Shown piece by piece: positions 2 to 12,233 of a DNA stretch of 12,474 bases. The DNA lies in the NCBI GenBank assembly GCA_030691435.1, contig JAUYEK010000162.1, forward strand, positions 1 to 12,474. The letters run 5' to 3'. The stretch comes from Sulfuricella sp. Lineage in GTDB: Bacteria; Pseudomonadota; Gammaproteobacteria; Burkholderiales; Sulfuricellaceae. The stretch's first letter is position 1; each line of letters begins with the position of its first letter. The notes under the pieces were generated by a model. That model did no database searches, had not been told where the DNA came from, and worked only from the letters and a program-made list of their open reading frames with translations. The position numbers and the translations under genes are program-made.

Positions 2-1480
2 AGGCTGGCCGGGGTACGGGTGCTGGTGGTGGACGACAACGAAACCGCGCGCGCGATATTCAGCGAGATACTGCGGCATTTCGGCATGCGGCCTGAAACC
101 GCCGAGCACGGCGAACAGGCTCTGGAAATGCTGCGCCGCGCGCAACTTGAAACGGATCCCTTCCGCGTGGTGCTGCTCGACTGGATGATGCCGGGCATCG
201 ACGGAATAGAAACCGCGCGCCGGATTCGCCAGGAAGACCAGCCCTTGGGCACGATGCCGGCGATCCTGATGATTACCGCCTACAGCCAGGAAAAGCTCTC
301 CTTCGAGGCCGAACAAGCCGGTATCGGCCATCTGCTGACCAAGCCGATCAGCGAGTCGACGCTGCACGATGCCATCGTCGAATCGCTGCTGGGGGACGAA
401 ATTGCCGGTCAGCGCCACCGCTATCGCCACAGTGCGCAGGCTCAAAGCCGCGACTTGAGCGCATTGCGCGGGGCGAGCGTGTTGCTGGTCGACGACAGCC
501 CGCTTAACCGCGAGGTGGCGATTGAATTCCTTAACGACGCGGGGCTTGCCATCGACGAGGCGGTCAATGGCCGCGAAGCGGTGGAAAAAGTATTTTCCGG
601 CGATTACCAATTGGTTTTGATGGACATCCAGATGCCCGAGATGGACGGCATCACGGCCACCCGGCTGATACGTGCCGACCCGCGCTTCCGCGATCTCCCC
701 ATCATCGCCATGACCGCGCACGCCATGGCCGGCGACCGCGAGCACAGCCTGGAAGCAGGCATGAACGACCACATCACCAAGCCGATCGATCCCGAGGTGC
801 TGTATGCCGCGCTGCAACACTGGATAGTCTGCGCCCCCCCAAAAAAAATCCCGGTGGCCGCACGGACGGAAACTGCTTCGACACCGGAATTTTTTCTCCG
901 GCTGGACGGCATAGACACCCGCGAGGGACTGCGCAACCACATGGGCAAGGAAGCTTTTTACCTGCGCATCCTGCGAATTTTCCGGCGCGACTTCAGCGAC
1001 GCCGGCAGCCGCATGCGCGACCTGATCGAGCGCGGCGAACTAGGCGAAGCAAGGCGCCTGGCGCACTCGCTCAAATCCGGCGCCGCCACCATCGGCGCGA
1101 TGGAACTTTCCGCCCACGCCAGGGAACTCGAGCTGGCGCTTGCCGAGGGGCGAGCGGCATCCGCGCTGGTGGAGAGCTTTGCCGAATCGGCGCGTCATAT
1201 CGCATTGTCTCTGGATGCGTTGCCCGCCGAAGAGCAGGCCCCCACCACGACCGCGCAAGGCGCCGACATCGCGCCGTTGCTGACCAAGCTCGAAGTGCTT
1301 TTGGCCGATGACGATGCCGCTGCCGACGATGCCTTCCTGGCGCTACGGAATACCATCTCCGACCCCAACCTTGACGACTTGCTGGGCAGGATAGGCGATC
1401 TGATCGAAGATGTGGAATACAAAAAGGCGTTGGAACTGCTCGCCGAAGCCAGCCTGAGCATGAAAGGAAAAACCACATGA
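2..1480 (+). CDS. Hybrid sensor kinase, 3' part (receiver-receiver-HPt), truncated at window start
   Basis: The reading frame is already open at base 2, inside the first beta strand of a receiver domain, so the gene begins upstream of the window. Residues are counted from the GTG at 20. Receiver 1 covers about 1-125, with the acidic pair D5/D6, phospho-acceptor D54 (LLDWMMPG), T86 and K108. Receiver 2 covers about 152-270, with D158/D159, phospho-acceptor D202 (LMDIQMPEMDG), T232 and K254. An HPt domain follows at about 300-400, with phospho-histidine H349 in RRLAHSLKSGAA. The last 80 residues are acidic and helical. This order is typical of the C-terminal half of a BarA/ArcB-like hybrid histidine kinase; the sensor and kinase core would lie to the left. 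The linker between receiver 2 and HPt carries a C7A8 tract. The stop overlaps the next start (ATGA), so the two are probably co-translated partners of one phosphorelay. Confidence 0.93.
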   Translation, partial: RLAGVRVLVVDDNETARAIFSEILRHFGMRPETAEHGEQALEMLRRAQLETDPFRVVLLDWMMPGIDGIETARRIRQEDQPLGTMPAILMITAYSQEKLSFEAEQAGIGHLLTKPISESTLHDAIVESLLGDEIAGQRHRYRHSAQAQSRDLSALRGASVLLVDDSPLNREVAIEFLNDAGLAIDEAVNGREAVEKVFSGDYQLVLMDIQMPEMDGITATRLIRADPRFRDLPIIAMTAHAMAGDREHSLEAGMNDHITKPIDPEVLYAALQHWIVCAPPKKIPVAARTETASTPEFFLRLDGIDTREGLRNHMGKEAFYLRILRIFRRDFSDAGSRMRDLIERGELGEARRLAHSLKSGAATIGAMELSAHARELELALAEGRAASALVESFAESARHIALSLDALPAEEQAPTTTAQGADIAPLLTKLEVLLADDDAAADDAFLALRNTISDPNLDDLLGRIGDLIEDVEYKKALELLAEASLSMKGKTT

Positions 1481-2601
1481 CGCAAAAACATTCGATACTG
1501 GTGGTCGACGACGAAAAGCAGAATCGGACGCTGCTTTCCGAACTGCTCAAGGACGATTATAAAATTTTACTCGCCAAGAACGGTGCGCAGGCGCTGGAGC
1601 GGGCGCGCAAGCATCTTCCCGACCTGATCATGCTGGACGTGCTGATGCCGGAAATGGACGGCCACCAGGTGATACGCGAACTCAAGTCAGACGAACTGAC
1701 CTGCGACATCCCGGTGATTTTCATTTCCGCGCTGGATTCTGCCTGCGACGAGGAAAAAGGGCTGGAACTAGGGGCGCTGGATTACATTTCCAAGCCCTTT
1801 CATCCCCCCATCGTGCGGGCGCGGGTGCGCAACCACCTCTCCCTGTGCGCCGCGCTGAGCCAGTTGCGCGCCCAGAAACAGTCCCTGGAAGAGGCCGCCG
1901 TGCTGCGCGACGATGTCGAGCGGATCATGCACCATGACCTCAAAAACCCGCTCAACGGGATTCTAGGCGCGGCGCAAATGATGCTCAGCGACAGCCCCAC
2001 CGAAGATGAGAGCATCGAATGGGCCAAAATGATCGAGCGATCCGGCTACACCATGCTGGACATGATCAGCCGCTCGCTCGACCTGTACAAGATGGAGCAG
2101 GGGCTTTACCGCTTTGAGCCGCAGCCGGTCGATCTGATCCCCATCCTGAAGCGGGTTATCAGCGACAATGGCGCACTGGTGCGCATGCTCCATCTTGGCG
2201 TGGCATTGAACGTCGGCGACCATGAAGCGGGTGGCAGCGAGGTTTTCCTGGTGCCCGGCGATGCCCCCCTTTGCTATTCGATGCTGGCCAACCTCATCAA
2301 AAACGCCATGGAAGCATCAAATGAGCAAGGCAGCGTCGCCATCGGCCTGCGTTGCGGTGTCTCCGGCTCGACGGTCAGCATACGCAACCAGGGCGAAATA
2401 CCCGAAGAGATACGCGAACATTTTTTCGAGAAATATGCGACCTCAGGAAAGTTCAGCGGTACCGGCCTGGGAACCTACTCCGCCCGCCTGATGATGCAAA
2501 CCATGGGCGGCGACATCGGCTTCGAAACCTCGGCGGAAAGCGGAACGGAAGTGATGGTACGATTCCCGCTGTTTTCCGGGGATTTCGCCGCGATGAATTA
2601 A
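1477..2601 (+). CDS. Response regulator-histidine kinase (receiver-HisKA-HATPase_c)
   Basis: A cytoplasmic 374-residue protein with no membrane segment. The N-terminal receiver (about 5-122) has D11/D12, phospho-acceptor D54 (IMLDVLMPEMDG) and K106. A short helical linker leads to a HisKA-type dimerisation helix with H-box HHDLKNPLNG, H153 being the likely phosphorylated histidine. The HATPase domain has an N-box around N276 (LIKNAMEAS), a G1-like box IRNQGEIP and a G2 box SGTGLGTYSARLM at 327-339. The start is the ATG in the ATGA overlap with the hybrid kinase gene, with an AAAGGA Shine-Dalgarno about 8 nt upstream. The receiver probably takes phosphate from the upstream HPt, or modulates the kinase of its own polypeptide. 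No DNA-binding or enzymatic output domain is present, so a further partner outside the window is expected. The domain calls are firm; the signal sensed is unknown. Confidence 0.93.
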   Translation: MTQKHSILVVDDEKQNRTLLSELLKDDYKILLAKNGAQALERARKHLPDLIMLDVLMPEMDGHQVIRELKSDELTCDIPVIFISALDSACDEEKGLELGALDYISKPFHPPIVRARVRNHLSLCAALSQLRAQKQSLEEAAVLRDDVERIMHHDLKNPLNGILGAAQMMLSDSPTEDESIEWAKMIERSGYTMLDMISRSLDLYKMEQGLYRFEPQPVDLIPILKRVISDNGALVRMLHLGVALNVGDHEAGGSEVFLVPGDAPLCYSMLANLIKNAMEASNEQGSVAIGLRCGVSGSTVSIRNQGEIPEEIREHFFEKYATSGKFSGTGLGTYSARLMMQTMGGDIGFETSAESGTEVMVRFPLFSGDFAAMN

Positions 2602-2874: not shown

Positions 2875-3204
2875 CTACGATTCGACTGGCTCGACGAATG
2901 GCATCGACCGCGTGGTTTTTTCCATGACGATCATGCCTGCATGGGGCTCGTTGATCCCGGCGGCGAAATACAGGAAGCGAAAGATTTCATCTGCCCGATG
3001 GGCCGGAACCAGTGCCGTGATGATTTCCCTCTCACTATAGAAAAGCTTCTTTGCCTGAACATTGCCGACCCCGATCCCGCGCGCGTGGTGGACAAATGCG
3101 TCGTTGATGTCCATTTCCTTGCGCAGTTCCTCAAGCACGCGCTGCCCACGTCCTGCCGGACAAAAACAGGTGATGGCCTTGTAATGGGTTGCGCCCGGTT
3201 TCAT
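2875..3204 (-). CDS. PII-like signalling protein (109 aa)
   Basis: A small soluble protein with the length and alternating strand-helix pattern of PII-superfamily trimers. A beta strand (HYKAITCFCPAG) leads to a helix (GQRVLEELRKEM), the loop region with ARGIGVGNVQ at 41-50, a strand EREIITALVP, a helix ADEIFRFLYFAAG, and a final GMIVMEK strand at 90-96. The GlnB/GlnK uridylylation tyrosine and its YRGAEY-type T-loop are absent, so this is not a canonical nitrogen PII protein. The start ATG overlaps the stop of the upstream PII-like gene (ATGA) and only a weak GGAA precedes it, which points to translational coupling. It is the last gene of a three-gene operon after a DUF1538 membrane protein. 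A role as ligand-sensing regulator of that membrane protein is inferred from context, not shown by sequence. Confidence 0.8.
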   Translation of the reverse strand: MKPGATHYKAITCFCPAGRGQRVLEELRKEMDINDAFVHHARGIGVGNVQAKKLFYSEREIITALVPAHRADEIFRFLYFAAGINEPHAGMIVMEKTTRSMPFVEPVES

Positions 3205-3569
3205 GATTCCGAATCGGTGAACTTTTCAATGAGTTCGGCCGGGATGTGGGTGGCCATTTTTTCCAGCGGCGTGATGTAGGCCATCCCCATGCCGGGAGTG
3301 TCCAGCTTGGCGGTGGTGAAAATGCGCTCGAAGATATGGTCAGCCTGATCGGTGGAGGCCACGATGTAGATGACCTCCTTTTCCGCGTTGACCGTCACGC
3401 CGAGAACGCCCATGTGGCGCTGGCGCACACCCATGCCGCGGGCGTAAAACACGGTCGCTCCCTGCGCGCCGGCCCTGCGGGCGGCACGCACCACTTCATC
3501 GGCCACGCCACGCTGAACAATCGCCGTGATCAGCACCGCATCCGTCAATACGATAATTTCGTCGCTCAT
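3201..3569 (-). CDS. PII-like signalling protein (122 aa)
   Basis: A second PII-like protein, paralogous in layout to the one that follows it. Strand EIIVLTDAVLITAIV is followed by helix GVADEVVRAARRAG, loop region with FYARGMGV at 41-48, strand KEVIYIVAS, helix DQADHIFERIFTTAKL, and C-terminal strand GMAYITPLEKMA. The ARG(I/M)GV motif is shared with its neighbour, but overall identity is low, so they are probably distinct subunits and not a recent duplication. No GlnB-type uridylylation tyrosine is seen. The ATG at 3569 was chosen over an upstream in-frame start at 3620 because it makes an ATGA overlap with the DUF1538 stop and has AAGGG about 10 nt before it; the extra 17 residues would also be atypical for PII. 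A function in controlling the adjacent membrane protein is inferred. Confidence 0.82.
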   Translation of the reverse strand: MSDEIIVLTDAVLITAIVQRGVADEVVRAARRAGAQGATVFYARGMGVRQRHMGVLGVTVNAEKEVIYIVASTDQADHIFERIFTTAKLDTPGMGMAYITPLEKMATHIPAELIEKFTDSES

Positions 3570-5275
3570 TCCAATATCACCCTTGCGCGCCGCTCCAGGG
3601 CGGTCCTCATGCGTATCCACAATCCCACCGCCAGCACGCTGACGATCGGGCCTACCGAAGCCATCGCCAGAATGCCGAACCCATCCTGCACTCCGACCGC
3701 CTTGCCCAGCCCCAAACCCAACGCGAGCACCAAGGGAACCGTCACCGGCCCGGTGGTAACGCCAGCGCTATCCCAGGCGAGGTTGACGTACTCCTCGCCG
3801 GAAAATAGGGTCATCAGCAGGGCGAGCATATAACTGGGCAACAGCAGCCAGGCAATCGGCAAATTAAAAATGATCTTGGCTACACCGATCGCTGTGCCGA
3901 CACCCACCCCGAAAGCGACTGCCCTGATCAAAGTGCTTTTGGCGAAAGCACCATCGGTCAATTCCTGCACCGTCATGCCCATGGCGTTCAGGGCGGGCTC
4001 GGCGAGCGTTGCGCCAAAACCCAGCAACAAAGCAAACAGCAAGGTCAAGGCTATGCCAATACCGTGGGAATACAAAGGCGAACCCGGAACCGACTCGAAA
4101 CGGGAGAATGAGGCCGGAAAAAGTTCGCCAGCCTGTGCGCCAAGCGTGGTCAGACCATAATCCAGGCCGATTGAGAACAGGGCCATGCCGAGTATGGCCA
4201 GCACAACGCCATACACGATAATATTGAGGTGCTGCTGCTTCTCCTTCAGCAGGAAACGCTGCACCACCCACAGGAACAACACCAGCGGCAGGATCGCGCG
4301 CAACGCCATAAAGATGTCGGCAAACGGCTCCATGTGCTGTCCATTCTCGCTGGGTGCGGTTGCCAGCAGGCTTTCGAGCGGAACATCGACCATCCACCCC
4401 CATTCCACGAACAGCCCCAGCAGCATCACCGCCATCACCGGGAACAGGGAGGCGAGTGTGACGATGCCGAAGCCGGAAAGCGGGTTGTCCTCCCGACCGG
4501 TAGCCGCGGAAACGCCGATACCGACAGCCAGAACCAGCGGAACCGTTACCGGCCCGGTGGTGATCGCGCCGCAATCCCAGGCCAGTCCGAGTATCGGGGC
4601 CAGCCTGGGATCGGACGCCAGGTATGCTGTAAGCATCAGACACGGAGGCACTGCGATAAACAGAATGGTCTTCAGGCGCCAGTTGAAATAGAAGCGCAGG
4701 ATGCCGACCAGCACGGCAAGTCCGACCCCGATCGCCACGGCGAACACCAGCCAGTGCACCCGGTCATGCAAAAGACTATAAAGGTGAGGCGCGGTTTCCG
4801 CGCTGGTCAGGCTGCCGGCCGCCTTGAGCGCCCCGATGGCCGGCTCGGCCAGCGTTGCCGCAGCCCCCAGCACAAAAGCCACCAGCGCTACGCTCATCAG
4901 GGACGACCGGCCCGGCATGGTATAGCCGATATTCTCGCTGAAGGGCATCAGGCCGTGCTTCACCCCTTCCATGAACAACATCAGGCCGACCATGATGCCG
5001 ACGAGACCCAGGGCCACACCCCCGGGATTAGCCACCCGAACATGCAACACGGCCAGCAGGAACAGCACCATGAACATGGCCAGTGGCACTACCGCCCGAA
5101 CCTGATCGAGAAAACGCAAACCGACATAAGGCGCGATCAGGCGGTACATATCCACCGCGCGCAGACGCAAACGGCGCCGCAACGGCGCATGTGCCGTCAC
5201 CGCGTTGTAGCTGATGGCATGCTGCCGGTGCCGGACGGCGCCGAGATAGTCTCCGTAACGGATGCGGGTCTTCAT
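3566..5275 (-). CDS. DUF1538-type polytopic membrane protein with internal duplication
   Basis: A 569-residue inner-membrane protein built of two homologous halves. Each half has ATLAEPA (140-146 and 422-428), AWD...TTGPVTVPLVLA (232-250 and 500-518) and GFGI (268-271 and 532-535), among many hydrophobic segments from about residue 62 to 555. This arrangement matches proteins with two DUF1538 domains. Biochemical function is not established to my knowledge; repeat symmetry and the conserved TTGPVTVP segments are transporter- or channel-like (inference). A basic cytoplasmic N-terminus (about 60 residues) precedes the first membrane segment. I chose ATG 5275 (MKTRIRYG); a GTG at 5317 in the same frame would add 14 residues and neither start has a good Shine-Dalgarno. 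It overlaps the first of two PII-like genes by ATGA, a link comparable to SbtA/SbtB or AmtB/GlnK pairs. Confidence 0.87.
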   Translation of the reverse strand: MKTRIRYGDYLGAVRHRQHAISYNAVTAHAPLRRRLRLRAVDMYRLIAPYVGLRFLDQVRAVVPLAMFMVLFLLAVLHVRVANPGGVALGLVGIMVGLMLFMEGVKHGLMPFSENIGYTMPGRSSLMSVALVAFVLGAAATLAEPAIGALKAAGSLTSAETAPHLYSLLHDRVHWLVFAVAIGVGLAVLVGILRFYFNWRLKTILFIAVPPCLMLTAYLASDPRLAPILGLAWDCGAITTGPVTVPLVLAVGIGVSAATGREDNPLSGFGIVTLASLFPVMAVMLLGLFVEWGWMVDVPLESLLATAPSENGQHMEPFADIFMALRAILPLVLFLWVVQRFLLKEKQQHLNIIVYGVVLAILGMALFSIGLDYGLTTLGAQAGELFPASFSRFESVPGSPLYSHGIGIALTLLFALLLGFGATLAEPALNAMGMTVQELTDGAFAKSTLIRAVAFGVGVGTAIGVAKIIFNLPIAWLLLPSYMLALLMTLFSGEEYVNLAWDSAGVTTGPVTVPLVLALGLGLGKAVGVQDGFGILAMASVGPIVSVLAVGLWIRMRTALERRARVILE

Positions 5276-5377
5276 CGCTGGTTCGGGATTGGGACAGAGG
5301 GTGAAAGTATCGCACACTCCGGCATGGCAACATTGATTATTGCGACTTGGCCAGACCGGCGCGCGGCAAGTATTTTC

Positions 5378-5919: not shown

Positions 5920-5926
5920 CACAATG

Positions 5927-5934
5927 AAAAGGGA
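5927..5934 (+). promoter_or_regulatory. Ribosome binding site deciding the korA start
   Basis: AAAAGGGA lies about 8 nt before ATG 5942. The earlier in-frame ATG at 5924 has no Shine-Dalgarno, and the later one at 5951 has a purine run only 1 nt away. The start at 5942 is therefore preferred. Confidence 0.7.
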
Positions 5935-5941
5935 CAACGAT

Positions 5942-7666
5942 ATGCAGGGTATGACCAAGAACGATCTGATTATTCGTATCGCCGGCGAAGGTGGCGAGGG
6001 GATTATTTCCGCTGGCGACTTCATCACGCAAGCCTGCGCGCGCATGGGCCTCGAGGTCTATACGTTCAAGACGTTCCCGGCGGAGATCAAGGGCGGCTAC
6101 GCGATGTACCAGCTGCGTACCTGCCCCCAGCGCATCTACAACCAGGGCGATACTTTCGACATCCTTTGCGCGTTCAACGGCGAGGCCTACGACCTGAACC
6201 GCGACCGGCTCAAGCCGGGCACGGCCTTCGTCTACGACAGCCCGGGCGGCGACTTCGAGCCGGATATTCCGCCCGGCGTTCATGCCTACCCCATCCCCAT
6301 GACCCTGACGGCACGCGAGCTGAACAGTCCGAAAGCCAAGAATATGGTGGCCATGGGCGCCTTGTCCACTCTGTTCAACATCCCTGAAGCCGCTTTGCGC
6401 GAGGTGCTTTCCGCCAAATTCGCGCGCAAGGGCGAAGCCGTGGTTCAAGGCAACCTGGCGGCTTTCGAGCGGGGCCGCGAACTGGCATCGGCGCTGAAAA
6501 AGACCGATTCCTTTGCCATCAAAGCGGCCGAAACCAAGCGCGATGTGGTAGTGATGTCGGGCAACAACGCCGTCGGCCTGGGCGCCCTGATCGCGGGGGT
6601 GGAATTCTTTTCCGCTTATCCCATTACCCCGGCGACCGAAATCGCGCAGTATGTGTCCAAGCATCTGCCCAAGCGCGGCGGCACCTTGATCCAGGCCGAG
6701 GACGAGATCGCTTCCATCTCCCATGTGGTCGGGGCATCCTATGCCGGCAAGAAGGCCATGACCGCCACTTCCGGCCCCGGCCTGGCGCTGATGAGCGAGA
6801 TGCTGGGCATGGCCTTCATGAGCGAAACCCCGTGCGTGGTGGTGGACGTGCAGCGCGGCGGCCCTTCCACGGGCTTGCCCACCAAACACGAACAGTCGGA
6901 TCTGTTCATGGCGGTACACGGTTCCCATGGCGATGCCGGACGCATCGTGCTGTCCGTGGAAGACGTGAAGGACTGTATCGACCTGACCGTGGCGGCCTTC
7001 AACCTGGCGGAGAAATACCAGTGCCCGGTGCTGCTGCTTTCCGACAGTTCCCTGGCGTTCTCGACCCAGACCATGCCTTATCCGAACCCGGACAGCTATG
7101 TCAATGTGGGCCGCAAGCGCTGGGACGGCGAGGGCGAATACCGGCGCTATGCGCTGACCGAGGACGGCATTTCGCCCATGGTCGATCCGGGCACGCACGG
7201 CGGCATGCACATCGCCACCGGCCTGGAACACAACGAGGCCGGCGCGCCCAACTACTCGGCGGCCAACCACGAGACCATGCAGGCCAAGCGTTTCGGCAAG
7301 CTCAAGGGGGTCATCAACGATTTCCCCGCCGTGGAAGAGGACGGGGAGGGCGAAGCCGACATCGGCATCATCGCTTGGGGCGGCACCATCGGCGTGGTGC
7401 GCGAGGGATTGCAACGGCTGCGCGCCGAAGGCTACCGGGTCAAGGGTTTCTATCCCAAGCTGCTGTGGCCCCTGCCGGTGGAGCAGTTCGAGCGCTTCGG
7501 CGCTTCCTGCACCAGGCTGTTGCTGCCCGAGGTCAATTACCTGGGGCAACTCGCCCATTTCGTGCGCGCGGAAACTTCGTTGCGCCCCGAGTCCTACACC
7601 ATTTGCGGCGGGCTACCCTTCACGCCCGACATGATAGTCCGTAAAGTCAAGGAGATGCTGGCATGA
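5942..7666 (+). CDS. korA: 2-oxoacid:ferredoxin oxidoreductase, fused gamma-alpha subunit (probably 2-oxoglutarate)
   Basis: A 574-residue cytoplasmic subunit of a CoA-dependent 2-oxoacid:ferredoxin oxidoreductase. The N-terminal gamma domain (about 8-190) opens with IRIAGEGGEGI and carries the FPAEIKGG segment. The alpha (pyrimidine-binding) domain follows from about 200, with SGNNAVGLGALIAGV and the family hallmark SAYPITPATEIAQYV at 224-238, then EDEIASISHVVGASYAGKKA, TSGPGLALMSEM and QRGGPSTGLPTKHEQSD. The fused gamma-alpha form with a separate beta subunit is the KorAB layout; there is no ferredoxin (delta) domain. Reaction: succinyl-CoA + CO2 + reduced ferredoxin to 2-oxoglutarate + CoA, or the reverse. 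Specificity for 2-oxoglutarate over pyruvate is inferred from architecture and the fumarate-reductase neighbours. It overlaps korB by ATGA. Confidence 0.93.
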   Translation: MQGMTKNDLIIRIAGEGGEGIISAGDFITQACARMGLEVYTFKTFPAEIKGGYAMYQLRTCPQRIYNQGDTFDILCAFNGEAYDLNRDRLKPGTAFVYDSPGGDFEPDIPPGVHAYPIPMTLTARELNSPKAKNMVAMGALSTLFNIPEAALREVLSAKFARKGEAVVQGNLAAFERGRELASALKKTDSFAIKAAETKRDVVVMSGNNAVGLGALIAGVEFFSAYPITPATEIAQYVSKHLPKRGGTLIQAEDEIASISHVVGASYAGKKAMTATSGPGLALMSEMLGMAFMSETPCVVVDVQRGGPSTGLPTKHEQSDLFMAVHGSHGDAGRIVLSVEDVKDCIDLTVAAFNLAEKYQCPVLLLSDSSLAFSTQTMPYPNPDSYVNVGRKRWDGEGEYRRYALTEDGISPMVDPGTHGGMHIATGLEHNEAGAPNYSAANHETMQAKRFGKLKGVINDFPAVEEDGEGEADIGIIAWGGTIGVVREGLQRLRAEGYRVKGFYPKLLWPLPVEQFERFGASCTRLLLPEVNYLGQLAHFVRAETSLRPESYTICGGLPFTPDMIVRKVKEMLA

Positions 7667-8553
7667 ACGACACAGCCCAGAAACACCTGCACCGGGTCGA
7701 ACTCAAGTCCAAGGAATACAAAAGCGACATCCCCGTGGTCTGGTGCGGCGGTTGCGGCCACCACGGCGTACTGACAGGCTTGCTGCGGGCGCTGTCGGAA
7801 CTCGGTGTCGATCCGAACTTTCTGGTGAATGTTTCCGGCATCGGTTGCTCCTCGCGTCTGCCGTATTTCGTGCAGTCCTACAAGATGCACACCCTGCACG
7901 GTCGCGCGGGCCCGGTGGCCACGGGCGTCCAACTGGCGCGCCCCGATCTGGCCGTGGTGGTTTCCGGCGGCGACGGCGACGGCTTCTCTATCGGCGGCGG
8001 GCACATGCCGCACCTGGCGCGCAAGAATATCAACATGACTTACGTGCTGATGGACAACCATATCTACGGGCTGACCAAGGGGCAGGTATCGCCCACCTCC
8101 CGCAGCATCCTGAAAGCCTACACTACCCCTTACGGCGGCGTGGACGAACCCATGGACCCGATTCTGTACATGCTCACCTATGGCGCCAGCTACGTGGCTC
8201 AAGCCTTCGCCGGCAACGTCAAGATGGTCACGCAGCTCATCAAGGACGGCATGGAGCACAAGGGATTTTCCTTCATCAATGTCCTCTCCCAGTGCCCGAC
8301 CTTCAACCAGATCGACACTGCCGCCTACTTCAAGAGCATCTGCAACGAAGCCGTCGCCGATCACGACGTATCCGATCTGGATGCCGCCATGCACGTGGTC
8401 AATCAGGCGATACGCGAGGAGCGCGTGCCCACCGGCCTGTTATACAAGGTCGAGCGCGCCACGCTGGACGAGCGCATGGCCGCGCTGGTGGAACATGTAG
8501 GCGGGCACCCGGATTACGACCTGAGAAAGATCATCGACCTTTCCCGCCCGTAA
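7663..8553 (+). CDS. korB: 2-oxoacid:ferredoxin oxidoreductase, beta (TPP-binding) subunit
   Basis: A 296-residue subunit carrying thiamine diphosphate and one [4Fe-4S] cluster. Cluster ligands are visible as C28 and C31 (WCGGCGHHG), C62 (GIGCSSRLPYF) and C211 (LSQCPTFNQ). The TPP/Mg motif begins GGDGDGFSIGGGH (102-114) and ends near N132 (VLMDNHIYGLTKGQ). The SHGRAGPVATG-type segment (LHGRAGPVATG, 78-88) is also typical. Length and motifs match KorB. Translation starts in the ATGA overlap with korA, with AAGGAG 8 nt upstream. Partner of KorA in an (alpha-beta)2 enzyme. Downstream, a repeat-filled 178-nt gap separates it from the iron-sulfur/flavoprotein/NuoF-like genes, which may supply or receive its electrons (inference). 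Confidence 0.94.
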   Translation: MNDTAQKHLHRVELKSKEYKSDIPVVWCGGCGHHGVLTGLLRALSELGVDPNFLVNVSGIGCSSRLPYFVQSYKMHTLHGRAGPVATGVQLARPDLAVVVSGGDGDGFSIGGGHMPHLARKNINMTYVLMDNHIYGLTKGQVSPTSRSILKAYTTPYGGVDEPMDPILYMLTYGASYVAQAFAGNVKMVTQLIKDGMEHKGFSFINVLSQCPTFNQIDTAAYFKSICNEAVADHDVSDLDAAMHVVNQAIREERVPTGLLYKVERATLDERMAALVEHVGGHPDYDLRKIIDLSRP

Positions 8554-8573
8554 ATCCTAAAAAAGCAGTTCAG

Positions 8574-8701
8574 CCACGGATTAGCACAGATATACACGGA
8601 TTATCAATGAGTTGCCACCATCACCCCAGGCACCTTTTGGGTGAGAGGTGAACCCACAATAACACATTGTTTTATCTGTGTTAATCCGTGTTTATCCGTG
8701 G
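8574..8701. repeat. Long inverted repeat with period-10 arms in korB to iron-sulfur gene gap
   Basis: The left arm (8574-8603) and the reverse complement of the right arm (8672-8701) match at about 23 of 30 positions. Each arm consists of three tandem 10-nt units of the type CACGGATTAA or CACAGATAAA, so the repeat has a period close to one DNA helical turn. The spacer (8604-8671) has no gene. The left margin (8559-8580) resembles 2607-2628. The element begins 20 nt after the korB stop and ends 30 nt before the next start. It looks like a mobile or expanding intergenic repeat, not a CRISPR. Confidence 0.8.
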
Positions 8702-8731
8702 ACAAAAGAGGTTTTAAGATCAATCTCACTC

Positions 8732-9406
8732 ATGACAAACGATAGCGACAATTCGCAAACCATCAACCTGACCATCAACGGGGTGGCTGTCGCGGCATCC
8801 GCGGCGATGACCCTGGTCGAGGCCGCCTGGCACGGCGGCGTGCCGCGCGTGACGGCGGTGAGCTGTCTCGAAAGCGTGTGCGGCTCCTGCCGCGTGCTGT
8901 TGCGGCGCGGCAAGGAGGTGACGGTGAACCTCGCCTGCCAGACCTTTGTCGAGGAGGGTATCGAGGCCGTGTTCCTGCCGCCGCAGGTGCCCCCGCTGCA
9001 TCACTACGAAATCGGCGACTTCACCGATGGCTGGAACATCCAGGCGCGTTTCCACGAGATATTTCCCGAGGCGTCCCATTGCCGGAATTGTCACGGCTGC
9101 GTGCGTTCCTGCCCCAAGGGGATCGATGTCGAGGGCGCTATTGCCTTGGCGGCGGCGGGCCATTTCCGCGATGCCGGGGAGGCCTTTCTGGAGTGCGTGA
9201 TGTGCGAACTCTGCGACAGCGCCTGCCCGGAGCTGATCGCGCCGGCTCACGTCGGGCTGTTCTGCCGGCGGATAACGGCGCATTTCCACCTGCGTCCGCC
9301 CAACCTCATCTACCGGCTGGAAGAGCAGCGCAAAGAGAAGGCGGGGCTCGCGGCAGGGGAATCGCACTACACGATTTCCCCCTTTGTAAAAGGGGGAAGT
9401 CGATGA
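8732..9406 (+). CDS. FrdB/SdhB-like iron-sulfur protein ([2Fe-2S] + two [4Fe-4S])
   Basis: A 224-residue soluble electron-transfer subunit. The N-terminal plant-type ferredoxin domain (about 10-85) binds [2Fe-2S] through C45, C50, C53 and C69 (CLESVCGSC...C). An alpha-helical domain has two full CxxCxxCxxxCP motifs, at 117-128 and 155-166. Classical SdhB/FrdB has one such motif plus a [3Fe-4S]/quinone-site motif, so this protein is closer to TfrB/GlpC-type arrangements and has no obvious quinone site. The ATG at 8732 was chosen because the ferredoxin domain begins just after it; in-frame sequence upstream (from 8678) is repeat DNA, and no strong Shine-Dalgarno is visible. The last residues, ISPFVKGGSR, are encoded by a palindromic repeat. 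It overlaps the flavoprotein gene by ATGA and should carry electrons between the flavoprotein and the NuoF-like subunit. Confidence 0.88.
   Translation: MTNDSDNSQTINLTINGVAVAASAAMTLVEAAWHGGVPRVTAVSCLESVCGSCRVLLRRGKEVTVNLACQTFVEEGIEAVFLPPQVPPLHHYEIGDFTDGWNIQARFHEIFPEASHCRNCHGCVRSCPKGIDVEGAIALAAAGHFRDAGEAFLECVMCELCDSACPELIAPAHVGLFCRRITAHFHLRPPNLIYRLEEQRKEKAGLAAGESHYTISPFVKGGSR
9372..9402 (+). promoter_or_regulatory. Hairpin covering the Shine-Dalgarno of the flavoprotein gene
   Basis: Bases 9372-9385 (CGATTTCCCCCTTT) pair with 9389-9402 (AAAGGGGGAAGTCG) over 14 bp with one G-U pair and a GTA loop. The helix ends exactly at the ATG at 9403, and its 3' arm contains the AGGGGGAAG ribosome-binding sequence. 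It also lies within the last codons of the iron-sulfur gene. Ribosomes finishing that gene would melt it, so obligatory translational coupling is likely. Its effect in cells is inferred. Confidence 0.7.
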
Positions 9407-11001
9407 GCATGATTAACGCCATGCCTCTGGCGCAAGCCCGCGCCCTCTACCGGCCCGATGCGGACATCGGCCCTCCGCCCGAACTGGCCGACCCGCTGGC
9501 GCTGCTCAACGCCTTTCACCCCGACTACGTGAGCAGCAGCGTGGCCAAGCTGGCCGTGGGCGCCAACGCGGGCGACAACTGTCAGCGCGAACTGGCCGAA
9601 CTGCTGCAAGCCGAGGCCATCATCGACGAAGCCGACCTGGCCGGCGCCCCCGTGACCGATACCGACGTGCTGATTATCGGCGGCGGCGGCGCGGGTTGCG
9701 CGGCGGCGCTGGCGGCGGCCGAGCGCGGCGCCCGTGTGCTGCTCGTCACCAAGCTGCGCCTGGGCGACAGCAACACGGTGATGGCGGAAGGCGGCATCCA
9801 GGTCGCCATCGAACCGGACGACTCGATCCAGCGTCACATTGAGGACACCCTGCGCGGCGGCCACGACATCGGCAACCCGGCACTGGTGGCGGCCATGGCG
9901 GAAGACGGCCCGGACGTAATCCGCTGGCTGATCCACGAGGGCATGCAGTTCGAACAGGAACCCAGCGGCGACCTGTGTACGCGGCGCGCGGGGGGCATGA
10001 GTGCCGCCCGGATCGTGCATTGCCGCGATTACACCGGGTTGGAAATGATGCGCGTGCTGCGCGAAGCCGTCATCCAGCACCGCTCCATCGAGGTCTGGGA
10101 GCAAAGCCCCGCCGTGGAACTCCTTTCCAATGAAATCGGCCAGAAATGCGTGGGCGCGGTGTTCAAATCCCTGGCCGACGGGCGTTTTCGCATGGTGCGT
10201 ACCCATTCCGTGATCCTCGCCACAGGAGGATTGGGGCGGCTGCACCTGAACGGTTTCCCCACCTCCAATCACCTCGGCGCCACGGGAGACGGCCTGGTTC
10301 TGGCCTACCGCATGGGCGCGCGCCTGCGCGATCTCGATTCCTTCCAGTATCACCCCACGGGCCTGGTGTACCCGCCCCACCTGTCGGGCAAACTGGTGAC
10401 CGAAGGCGTGCGCGCGGCTGGCGCCCAGATGCTGAATGCCGCAGGCCAGCGCTTCATCGACGAACTGCTGCCGCGCGATATAGTGAGCGCCGCCATCCTG
10501 CGCGAATGCCAGGAAGGACGCGGCATCCGCGTCGATGACGGGCGCGTCGGGGTGTGGCTGGACACGCCCCGGCTGGAACGCTCCCAACCGGGACTGCTGG
10601 AGCGGCAGTTTCCCAAGCTGCTGGCGCGTGCGCGGGTGTCGGGCATCGACCCGCGTCTCGATCCCTTGCTGATCCACCCGACCCTGCATTACCAGAACGG
10701 CGGCGTAGTGATCGACGTCAACGGCGCCACCACGGTGCCCGGCCTATACGCGGTAGGCGAGGTGGCGGGCGGCATCCACGGGCGCAACCGGATCATGGGC
10801 AATGCCCTGTTGGACATCATCAGCTTCGGACGACGCGCCGGCGTGGCCGCTACCTCGCAACGCGACCGTGGCCCCAAGAAAGTGACCCTGGAACACGTCA
10901 ACCGCGCCCGGCGCGAGCTGACACTGGCCGGCATTCCGCTCACCCATGAAGCGCCGCAAATCCTGCCGGACTACGCAGCGAAGGGCATATGGAATCGTTG
11001 A
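9403..11001 (+). CDS. FrdA/SdhA-family FAD flavoprotein, probably soluble fumarate reductase catalytic subunit
   Basis: A 532-residue cytoplasmic flavoprotein. An unusual N-terminal extension (1-87) precedes the FAD Rossmann motif DVLIIGGGGAGCAAALAAAE (88-107). Family residues are present: AEGGIQVAI (128-136), HPTG with H317/T319, TEGVRAAG with E334, RFIDELLPRDIVS with catalytic-type R358, LHYQNGG with H429, and HGRNRIMGNALLD with R463. The histidine that binds FAD covalently in SdhA/FrdA (SHTV) is replaced by N124 (SNTV), so FAD should be non-covalent, as in soluble fumarate reductases and L-aspartate oxidase. Only about 50 residues follow the FAD domain, so the usual long C-terminal helical region is missing. 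The start at 9403 has a strong Shine-Dalgarno and an ATGA overlap; the frame is open further upstream only as a shadow. L-aspartate oxidase is less likely given the iron-sulfur and NuoF-like neighbours. Confidence 0.87.
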   Translation: MSMINAMPLAQARALYRPDADIGPPPELADPLALLNAFHPDYVSSSVAKLAVGANAGDNCQRELAELLQAEAIIDEADLAGAPVTDTDVLIIGGGGAGCAAALAAAERGARVLLVTKLRLGDSNTVMAEGGIQVAIEPDDSIQRHIEDTLRGGHDIGNPALVAAMAEDGPDVIRWLIHEGMQFEQEPSGDLCTRRAGGMSAARIVHCRDYTGLEMMRVLREAVIQHRSIEVWEQSPAVELLSNEIGQKCVGAVFKSLADGRFRMVRTHSVILATGGLGRLHLNGFPTSNHLGATGDGLVLAYRMGARLRDLDSFQYHPTGLVYPPHLSGKLVTEGVRAAGAQMLNAAGQRFIDELLPRDIVSAAILRECQEGRGIRVDDGRVGVWLDTPRLERSQPGLLERQFPKLLARARVSGIDPRLDPLLIHPTLHYQNGGVVIDVNGATTVPGLYAVGEVAGGIHGRNRIMGNALLDIISFGRRAGVAATSQRDRGPKKVTLEHVNRARRELTLAGIPLTHEAPQILPDYAAKGIWNR

Positions 11002-12233
11002 ACACCGTCCTGCTTCACCCCGACCGGAGCATCGGCGCCGACATGGAGCGCTGGCGCAAATCGGGCGGCGGCCAGGCGCTGGCGCGCGCCGCGAACGACC
11101 CCGCCGCCGTGCGCGAGGCGATCCGCCAGGCCGACCTGCGCGGCTTGGGCGGCAGCGGCTTTCCGGTGTGGCGCAAGTGGGATGCGGTTGCCGCCGAATC
11201 GCCCAAACCGGACAAATACCTGGTGGTGAACGGCAACGAGGATGAGCCGGGTACCTACAAGGATCGCCTGCTGCTGGAGGAAACGCCGCACCAGGTGATC
11301 GAAGGCGCCTTGGTGGCCGCCCTGGCGGTCGGCGCCAACCGCGTGGTGTTTTACGTCAATCCCGATCTCGCCCTGTCCTTGGCGGCACTGAAAATGGCAA
11401 TCGAGCAGTGGCAGGCATCGGAGCTGCTCGACCTGGCCTCGACCGCGCTGGGCAGGCCGCTGGAGCTGACGCTGCTGCCCGGTTCCGGGCACTACATCGG
11501 CGGCGAGGAAACGGCGGCGATGGAATGGATCGAAGGCCGTTTTCCCTTCCCGCGCGGCAAGCCGCCCTATCCGGCACAGGTGGGGGTGCATGGCTGCCCC
11601 ACCCTGATCAACAATGTGGAAACCCTGGCGCATGTGCCGCACATCGTGGTGCACGGCGCGGACTGGTTCCGCGCCCTCGGCAAAGCGCCCGGCACCGGCA
11701 CCAAGCTCTATTCCCTGAGCGGCGACGTGCTCTACCCGGATGTCTACGAACTGCCCATGGGCACCACGCTGCGCGAACTCATCTACGTTCACGGCGGCGG
11801 CCTGCTCTCGGGCAAACCGCTCAAGGCGGTATTCACCGGCGGCCCCTCCTGCACCCTGCTGGCGCCCGACGACCTGGACGTGGCGCTGGATTTCGACTCC
11901 CTGCGCGCGCGCGGCGCCAGCCTGGGCACCGGCGCGATGATCGTGATTTCCGAAGGCACCGGCATCGTCAAGCGCGTCGCCGAATATATGCGCTTCTTCG
12001 CCCACTCCTCCTGCGGCCAGTGCATGTCGTGCAAGACCGGCACCGCCACCATGAGCCTGCTGCTGGATCGCATCGACACCGGGCGCGGCACCGCGACCGA
12101 CCTCGCCACCCTGGAAAACCTCTGCGCCATGCTGCCCGGCACCGGCCGCTGCCACCTGATCACCGGCGTCGTGCAACTGCTGGACAGTTCCTTCCGCCAT
12201 TTCAAGCACGAGTACCAGCAAGCGCTACGCTGA
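10989..12233 (+). CDS. NuoF-like NADH-binding FMN/[4Fe-4S] protein
   Basis: A 414-residue protein homologous to the 51-kDa (NuoF) subunit of complex I and of soluble NAD(P)H-dependent oxidoreductases. The FMN/NADH fold shows RGLGGSGFP (51-59), VNGNEDEPGTYKDR (80-93) and YIGGEETAAMEWIEG (169-183), then the SLBB-like segment around 236-285. The cluster motif CGQCMSC (C342, C345, C348) with C388 matches the N3 [4Fe-4S] ligands. No thioredoxin-like 2Fe-2S (NuoE) domain is fused and no NuoE or NuoG gene is adjacent, so this is not a complex I operon. It overlaps the flavoprotein gene by 13 nt, with AAGGG 3 nt before the ATG. It probably takes electrons from NADH and passes them through the iron-sulfur protein to the FrdA-like subunit, as a diaphorase module. 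NAD versus NADP preference cannot be judged here. Confidence 0.9.
   Translation: MESLNTVLLHPDRSIGADMERWRKSGGGQALARAANDPAAVREAIRQADLRGLGGSGFPVWRKWDAVAAESPKPDKYLVVNGNEDEPGTYKDRLLLEETPHQVIEGALVAALAVGANRVVFYVNPDLALSLAALKMAIEQWQASELLDLASTALGRPLELTLLPGSGHYIGGEETAAMEWIEGRFPFPRGKPPYPAQVGVHGCPTLINNVETLAHVPHIVVHGADWFRALGKAPGTGTKLYSLSGDVLYPDVYELPMGTTLRELIYVHGGGLLSGKPLKAVFTGGPSCTLLAPDDLDVALDFDSLRARGASLGTGAMIVISEGTGIVKRVAEYMRFFAHSSCGQCMSCKTGTATMSLLLDRIDTGRGTATDLATLENLCAMLPGTGRCHLITGVVQLLDSSFRHFKHEYQQALR

Follow-up and report, generated by a model that had tools for sequence, protein, structure and literature searches.

The window analysed here, a 12,474-nucleotide contig of Sulfuricella sp. (assembly GCA_030691435.1, contig JAUYEK010000162.1), carries the gene set korA-korB-frdB-frdA-nuoF, in which FrdB, FrdA and NuoF quite likely form a soluble three-subunit NADH:fumarate reductase that serves, together with KorAB, in a reductive branch of the tricarboxylic acid (TCA) cycle. 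Relatives that also possess ATP-citrate lyase (ACL) probably have a complete reductive TCA cycle in addition to the Calvin cycle. From the sequences we infer the formation of the complex, its electron path, the NADH:fumarate activity, its direction and its physiological use. The window (G000:C353) belongs to an assembly of 1.84 Mb in 453 contigs, with a completeness of 79.37%.

The five genes lie co-directionally on the + strand between positions 5924 and 12233, as the initial annotation had described (Table 1). KorA and KorB overlap by 4 nt, FrdB and FrdA also by 4 nt, and FrdA and NuoF by 13 nt; the sole gap is found between KorB and FrdB. The start of frdB was set at the ATG at 8732 (an alternative GTG is present at 8678). 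No membrane anchor family was matched among the nine window proteins scanned (a scan restricted to the window), in line with the earlier statement that anchor genes are missing.

Table 1. Genes of the kor-frd-nuoF cluster and the spacer between korB and frdB (positions in the window).
Feature	Position	Strand	Families and motifs
korA, fused gamma-alpha subunit, two-subunit 2-oxoglutarate:ferredoxin oxidoreductase	5924..7666	+	TIGR03710, 627 bits (cut-off 482.75)
korB, beta subunit, thiamine pyrophosphate (TPP) domain	7663..8553	+	TIGR02177, 277 bits (cut-off 261.9)
korB-frdB spacer, 178 nt	8554..8731	.	imperfect inverted repeat
frdB-like Fe-S adaptor	8732..9406	+	[2Fe-2S], then CxxCxxCxxxCP twice; Fer2, Fer4 families
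frdA-like flavoprotein, 532 aa	9403..11001	+	six fumarate-site residues, Asn at the His44 position
nuoF-like NADH/FMN subunit, 414 aa	10989..12233	+	PF01512, SLBB, PF10589; N3 [4Fe-4S] cysteines

Conservation was followed in a set of loci obtained by scanning GTDB genomes for FrdA relatives, where the best 80 of the 144 hits were used. Residue counts therefore refer to 81 sequences for FrdA (the window plus 80 loci), 74 for FrdB and 69 for NuoF. Among these best 80 of 144, the closest named FrdA relatives come from metagenome-assembled genomes of Hydrogenophilales (L035, 92%) and Gallionellaceae (L036, 88%).

The FrdA protein aligns to E. coli FrdA across chain residues 6-414. The positions aligned with the fumarate-site residues H232, T244, E245, R287, H355 and R390 of E. 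coli FrdA are conserved in 81/81 sequences, confirming that the catalytic residues are kept. The position of the FAD-linking His44 is occupied by Asn, again in all 81 sequences, and the FAD of the window protein is probably bound non-covalently. In E. coli His44 variants, non-covalent FAD reportedly promotes the reduction of fumarate and impairs the oxidation of succinate. The N-terminal extension, of ~85 residues, contains invariant HPD and G-x-N motifs, and a cysteine at residue 62 (534-residue numbering; window ~9580), which is present in 81/81 sequences and replaced by Leu in two TfrA-like proteins. The predicted structure has a mean predicted local distance difference test (pLDDT) score of 89.2, and its matches among solved structures are led by fumarate reductases and succinate dehydrogenases. 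The match to E. coli FrdA (577 residues) stops at chain residue 509, the C-terminus of the window protein being shorter.

In respect to FrdB, 12 cysteines are arranged in three sets of four, each conserved in 72-74 of the 74 sequences with the shortfall due to gaps, as expected for the [2Fe-2S] and two [4Fe-4S] clusters assigned before. That description can be refined, since the last motif is CxxCxxCxxxCP, unlike the [3Fe-4S] motif of SdhB/FrdB. Several Fer2/Fer4 family scores are near or below the cut-off. The fold likeness is weak: the first half resembles the [2Fe-2S] domains of NuoG/HydA, and the second the diclusters of carbon monoxide dehydrogenase, HdrC and RnfC. The NuoF protein (TIGR01959, 383 bits, below the cut-off of 558.65) appears to be a bare core, with conserved FMN/NADH motifs and N3 cysteines. 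Neither an N-terminal NuoE/thioredoxin-type domain nor a C-terminal ferredoxin domain was found in it, and its 414 residues align solely to residues 138-523 of the 597 in 7t2r_B, without counterparts of the additional Fe-S domains.

Two other identities were considered for the flavoprotein and rejected. Matches to parts of the cluster carry the names 'L-aspartate oxidase', 'succinate dehydrogenase / fumarate reductase flavoprotein subunit' and 'NADH-quinone oxidoreductase subunit F'. In the case of L-aspartate oxidase, the TIGR00551 score (329 bits) is below the cut-off of 452.75, and the position of the NadB-specific Glu121 is Ala in 71, Pro in 9 and Gly in 1 of the 81 sequences. An ordinary complex II (succinate:quinone or quinol:fumarate reductase) is represented by E. 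coli FrdAB (1kf6), with which the window proteins share the flavoprotein fold and the six fumarate-site residues. They differ from it by the lack of adjoining anchor genes, the Asn in place of the covalent FAD-linking His, the shorter C-terminus of FrdA, and the second CxxCxxCxxxCP motif of FrdB, a [4Fe-4S] motif in the place of the [3Fe-4S] one.

The three proteins have mostly been inherited together, as judged from gene order and sequence divergence. Where at least 800 nt of upstream sequence is available (75 loci), FrdB adjoins FrdA on that side in 70 cases; where the downstream flank reaches 1300 nt or more (73 loci), NuoF follows directly in 64. The calls of FrdB, NuoF and Kor were based on tblastn with the window proteins and one gammaproteobacterial KorAB, so that divergent forms may have escaped notice. 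For 68 sequences the correlations of pairwise identities are 0.94 (FrdA-NuoF), 0.91 (FrdA-FrdB) and 0.87 (FrdB-NuoF). Maximum-likelihood trees, built for FrdA and for NuoF from the window and 33 loci (with two additional TfrA-like rows for FrdA), share one fully supported set of 15 rows that includes the window, while the finer branching agrees partly. In the FrdA tree the units of Nitrotoga and Nitrosomonas mobilis (L084, L093, L111) nest among gammaproteobacterial ones, and those labelled as alphaproteobacterial (L058, L064, L065) nest among Gallionella-like ones, which may reflect transfer of the whole three-gene unit as a cassette. Three loci (L086, L071, L074) miss one neighbour and have too short a flank on the other side. 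In L072, L074 and L091 a Beggiatoaceae-type FrdA, with no FrdB or NuoF nearby, is preceded by two conserved proteins, the larger of which (in L072) has no Pfam match.

KorAB of the window is most likely a 2-oxoglutarate synthase of the Magnetococcus marinus type. The top solved match of KorA is 6n2n_A (920 bits over residues 10-578, runner-up 245 bits) and that of KorB is 6n2n_B (423 bits, runner-up 194 bits); the two-subunit architecture, with a KorA gamma-alpha fusion plus KorB, is common to the window pair and the M. marinus 2-oxoglutarate:ferredoxin oxidoreductase (6n2n/6n2o). The M. marinus structure 6N2O, with a TPP-bound intermediate, is illustrated in the chapter on CO2-fixing enzymes of a review (PMC10176493).

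The connection of the unit to Kor recurs in two forms. Adjacency was scored within 3 kb at the loci with 3.3 kb on both sides (50/80, called well-flanked below). KorAB of the window type is placed upstream of the unit in Gallionella-like loci (29/80; 18 of the 50 well-flanked), and a different KorAB, whose KorA is 31-32% identical to that of the window, is placed downstream in gammaproteobacterial loci (10/80, all well-flanked). That the unit is joined by two dissimilar KorAB types, each on a different side, suggests that these associations arose independently. The initial annotation had expected the unit to occur mainly with korAB, and this held in part, with Kor adjacent in 28 of the 50 well-flanked loci and not adjacent in 22. 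In the window's taxonomic family (22 genomes) the main FrdA and the window-type KorA are found in the same 8 genomes (G000, G001, G002, G003, G007, G008, G013, G015), more than chance linkage would give; G003 and G014 also hold diverged copies of both proteins. Downstream of the gammaproteobacterial KorAB in L112 (14945-19540) there is an 822-residue protein with a C-terminal ferredoxin domain as its sole Pfam match, as well as an RnfB-like protein and a POR_N/PFOR_II protein; a similar arrangement is seen in L097, L104, L108 and L109 (families were checked for L112 only).

The wider gene context points to the reductive TCA cycle. ACL (PF16114) is matched in 26 of 49 FrdA genomes (G000 and the genomes behind 48 of the 80 loci, picked mainly for long contigs) and in 4 of 369 genomes taken evenly across the class (Fisher p ~8e-24, kinship uncorrected). 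The co-occurrence with ACL proposed earlier thus stands overall, although in the window's own family just one of the 8 operon carriers has ACL. The gene context supports the earlier proposal of a soluble NADH-linked fumarate reductase feeding the reductive branch. In two Gallionella contigs, L122 (STC_117, 217,585 bases) and L123 (STA_52, 226,089 bases), nine co-directional genes run in the order ACL small subunit, ACL large subunit, aconitase, monomeric isocitrate dehydrogenase, KorA, KorB, FrdB, FrdA, NuoF (the first four were named by Pfam in L122 and by likeness in L123). Six genomes (G045, G046, G048, G049, G051 and G053, the last being Ca. Ferrigenium straubiae KS03) each gave one KorA match, which is of the window type, and have ACL stretches with ACL, aconitase and isocitrate dehydrogenase, in which no Hdr-Flx genes were noticed. 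Around such stretches there are Rnf genes in L125 (RnfC and RnfD over the cut-off, the rest by eye), a pyruvate:ferredoxin oxidoreductase in L130 (TIGR02176, 1758 bits), and a biotin-carboxylase / pyruvate-carboxylase-B pair in L124. Other neighbours of the unit are also TCA or redox genes, namely aconitase with PntAB (e.g. L078, L089) and SucC after NuoF (L081, L088, L092; L081 checked by family).

RuBisCO is matched in 42/49 genomes, the membrane cytochrome of succinate dehydrogenase in 42/49, and the E1 component of 2-oxoglutarate dehydrogenase (OGDH) in 38/48. The operon therefore duplicates two steps for which most genomes already have the oxidative enzymes, which fits a reductive role. 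Simple replacement of OGDH was rejected as a general rule, because its E1 is found in 5 of the 8 family operon carriers and 38 of the 48 locus genomes (the two sets seem to overlap partly, G002 and G060, for example, having the same OGDH coordinates).

In the proposed mechanism, NADH would deliver two electrons to the FMN of NuoF, from which they would pass singly through the N3 [4Fe-4S] cluster and then the three FrdB clusters ([4Fe-4S], [4Fe-4S], [2Fe-2S]) to the non-covalent FAD in FrdA. There fumarate would be reduced to succinate in a practically unidirectional reaction. KorAB would act as a 2-oxoglutarate synthase fed by reduced ferredoxin, and the operon would then supply both TCA steps whose oxidative forms, succinate dehydrogenase and 2-oxoglutarate dehydrogenase, reverse poorly. 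The ferredoxin for Kor would most likely come from Rnf, driven by NADH and an ion gradient, rather than from the fumarate reductase; RnfA, RnfC, RnfD and RnfE score above their cut-offs in the window genome.

Several observations speak against this assignment or narrow it. The model of FrdB is of moderate quality (pLDDT 78.2, predicted TM-score 0.54). FrdBA lacks an adjoining NuoF in five gammaproteobacterial loci (L073, L078, L079, L080, L089), and FrdA has neither partner in L072, L085 and L091, so that NADH may not be the donor everywhere. Besides the 22 well-flanked loci with no adjacent Kor (in L096 the gammaproteobacterial type lies slightly farther), six of the 49 FrdA genomes, including two of Nitrotoga and that of Nitrosomonas mobilis, have no fused-KorA match at E <= 1e-60. 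In the Escarpia laminata symbiont, where FrdBA-NuoF precedes a dimeric KorAB (L083), Rubin-Blum et al. note the dimeric korAB beside citrate synthase and consider that it may serve either the oxidative cycle or a reverse cycle lacking ACL (PMC6315080). In the window's family ACL is matched in one of the 22 genomes (G003) and in none of the other 7 operon carriers, while searches of the window genome (79% complete) for ACL, RuBisCO, Sdh_cyt and OGDH E1 found none of them, so that a closed cycle is not supported for this incomplete genome.

Three other explanations were weighed against the NADH:fumarate reductase. The initial annotation had raised the possibility of an electron-bifurcating enzyme. 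In such an enzyme two NADH would be oxidised, with two electrons passed to fumarate and two to ferredoxin or directly to KorAB, one-to-one with 2-oxoglutarate synthesis. Such a coupling is thermodynamically feasible by standard potentials, Kor needs low-potential electrons, and it is adjacent in the 28 loci mentioned. The top Foldseek matches of the FrdB model (8oh5_C, 9bov_A, 9mqx_A) are also Fe-S parts of bifurcating enzymes, though with low TM-scores (0.23-0.26), and Hdr-Flx reductive TCA clusters place a proposed bifurcating complex comparably (PMC6315080; PMC11636981). The residues of NuoF argue otherwise. Three criteria, drawn from hydrogenases, formate dehydrogenases and complex I and hence no proof for a new complex, are given to separate bifurcating from NADH-only NuoF-type subunits, the bifurcating type having Ala/Glu and Met in the vicinity of the NADH site, Phe close to the FMN site, and GGPSG in the SLBB domain (PMC7311640). 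NuoF of the cluster has Thr-x-Lys at the NADH site in 69/69 sequences and Tyr at the FMN site in 68/69, and GGPSG occurs in 0/69 (the fifth residue is S in 32, N in 31, C in 5, and a gap in 1), whereas another NuoF-like protein of the window genome (L002/L133), taken as a control, has the Ala/Met and GGPSG patterns at both sites that could be read. The bifurcating NuoF-type complexes HydABCSL (7t30), StnABC (8oh5), NfnABC (9bov) and the aldehyde oxidoreductase (9mqx) have in common with the window unit a NuoF-like subunit, an Fe-S adaptor and a catalytic subunit, but their characteristic residues and extra Fe-S domains are absent from the cluster NuoF, and no NuoE gene adjoins it. With Rnf available for making ferredoxin in the window genome and fused KorA unmatched in six FrdA genomes, bifurcation is very improbable and this part of the earlier proposal is not supported; a small probability is kept because the criteria come from other enzymes and FrdB weakly resembles bifurcating Fe-S parts.

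It is also improbable, to a somewhat smaller extent, that the unit is an NADH adaptor for Kor, as had been put forward as a simpler option. KorAB would then oxidise 2-oxoglutarate, and electrons would pass through the Fe-S protein, the flavoprotein and NuoF to NAD+, the FrdA fold being a relay. NAD(P)-linked 2-oxoacid oxidoreductases provide a model, the unit is adjacent to Kor, OGDH E1 is unmatched in three operon-bearing genomes of the family (G000, G003, G008), and a catabolic role has been suggested for dimeric KorAB located with citrate synthase (PMC6315080). A relay, however, has no need of the fumarate-site residues that are invariant in 81/81 sequences. OGDH E1 is already present in most locus genomes, the three family genomes without it are 79-89% complete, and SucC or aconitase/transhydrogenase replace Kor at some loci. 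The idea is weakened further by the six genomes without fused KorA and the 22 loci where Kor is not adjacent. Less remote, although still unlikely, is a role as an electron sink or in succinyl-CoA supply at low oxygen, with no CO2-fixing reverse cycle and with Kor aiding the redox balance. This would suit the 23/49 genomes and 7/8 family operon carriers with no ACL match, the Nitrotoga and Nitrosomonas mobilis units that occur without fused KorA, and the SucC gene after NuoF in three loci, but it leaves aside the enrichment of ACL relative to the class sample and the nine-gene ACL run of L122 and L123. Taken with these, the NADH:fumarate reductase of a reductive TCA branch is preferred.

A soluble NADH-dependent fumarate reductase from Hydrogenobacter thermophilus, with five subunits encoded by scattered genes, is said to have been described by Miura et al. 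in 2008. Likened by description, the window unit would share with it solubility (predicted), NADH as donor and service to the reductive TCA cycle, but it has three clustered genes in place of the five scattered genes of FrdABCDE. A second related system is the Hdr-Flx/TfrAB/KorABCD/ACL cluster, described for tubeworm symbionts and Thioflavicoccus by Rubin-Blum et al. (2019, PMC6315080), and found by eye, also or instead, in L115, L116, L129, L131 and L132. The window FrdA is 45-46% identical to TfrA-like proteins in G003, G014 and L131, which belong to apparent Hdr-Flx clusters and have the same N-terminal extension, and both the TfrAB fumarate reductase of these clusters and the window-type FrdA are linked to Kor, ACL, aconitase, PntAB and Rnf. 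They differ in that HdrABC and FlxABCD are missing here and in L122 and L123, where a lone NuoF is found instead (hdrABC/flxABCD are present, by eye, in L129, L131 and L132), and in that KorAB has two subunits and not the four of KorABCD. Neither 'NuoF' nor 'Gallionella' is mentioned in the main text of PMC6315080.

The remaining observations concern the surroundings of these genes. In the 30 relatives having both genes, the median distance from korB to frdB is -4 nt, and for this reason the spacer of the window looks like an insertion of its lineage. The arms of its inverted repeat lie within 8575-8606 and 8673-8700, and the repeat as a whole (8575-8700) resembles a small inserted repeat element. 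On the - strand, at 2875-5317, a DUF1538 protein has one UmpA-like and one UmpB-like half (by Na/Li/K:H+ antiporter models, below the cut-off); after it come a PII-family protein and another small protein with no family match. These genes possibly encode a PII-regulated cation antiporter. Positions 2-2601 (+ strand) hold the end of a protein with two receiver domains (by eye) and a receiver-histidine-kinase protein. Elsewhere in the genome, L133 (G000:C58) has a set of NuoE, a bifurcating-type NuoF and a GltD-NuoG fusion, which resembles the StnABC/NfnABC transhydrogenases (a name given by likeness), and the contig also carries genes resembling a dsr sulfur-oxidation cluster (by eye). In L135 (G000:C270) HoxF- and HoxU-like genes, below the cut-offs, precede the apparent start of a hydrogenase large subunit, and they probably belong to an NAD-reducing hydrogenase.

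For the neutrophilic iron oxidisers of the Gallionellaceae, including Ca. Ferrigenium straubiae, and for related groups, these results tentatively suggest a second pathway of CO2 fixation, a possibility that we rate slightly below even: a reductive TCA cycle besides the Calvin cycle, with a new minimal NADH fumarate reductase, ferredoxin supplied by Rnf, and the genes packed as one nine-gene run or a few clusters. In the main text of a study of 103 Gallionellaceae genomes the terms 'TCA', 'citrate lyase' and 'fumarate' do not appear, the passage on carbon fixation deals with RuBisCO, and the function of Rnf is called unknown (PMC10734462); the consulted part of the paper on the Ca. F. straubiae isolate likewise lacks these three terms and names the Calvin cycle (PMC12622760). 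If the assignment is true, the three-gene NADH:fumarate reductase would be a recurrent part of the metabolism of chemolithoautotrophs and a convenient minimal enzyme for use in pathway engineering, and iron-oxidising relatives of Gallionella would possess genes for the Calvin and reductive TCA cycles alike, a two-pathway question that the cultured strain Ca. F. straubiae makes directly testable.

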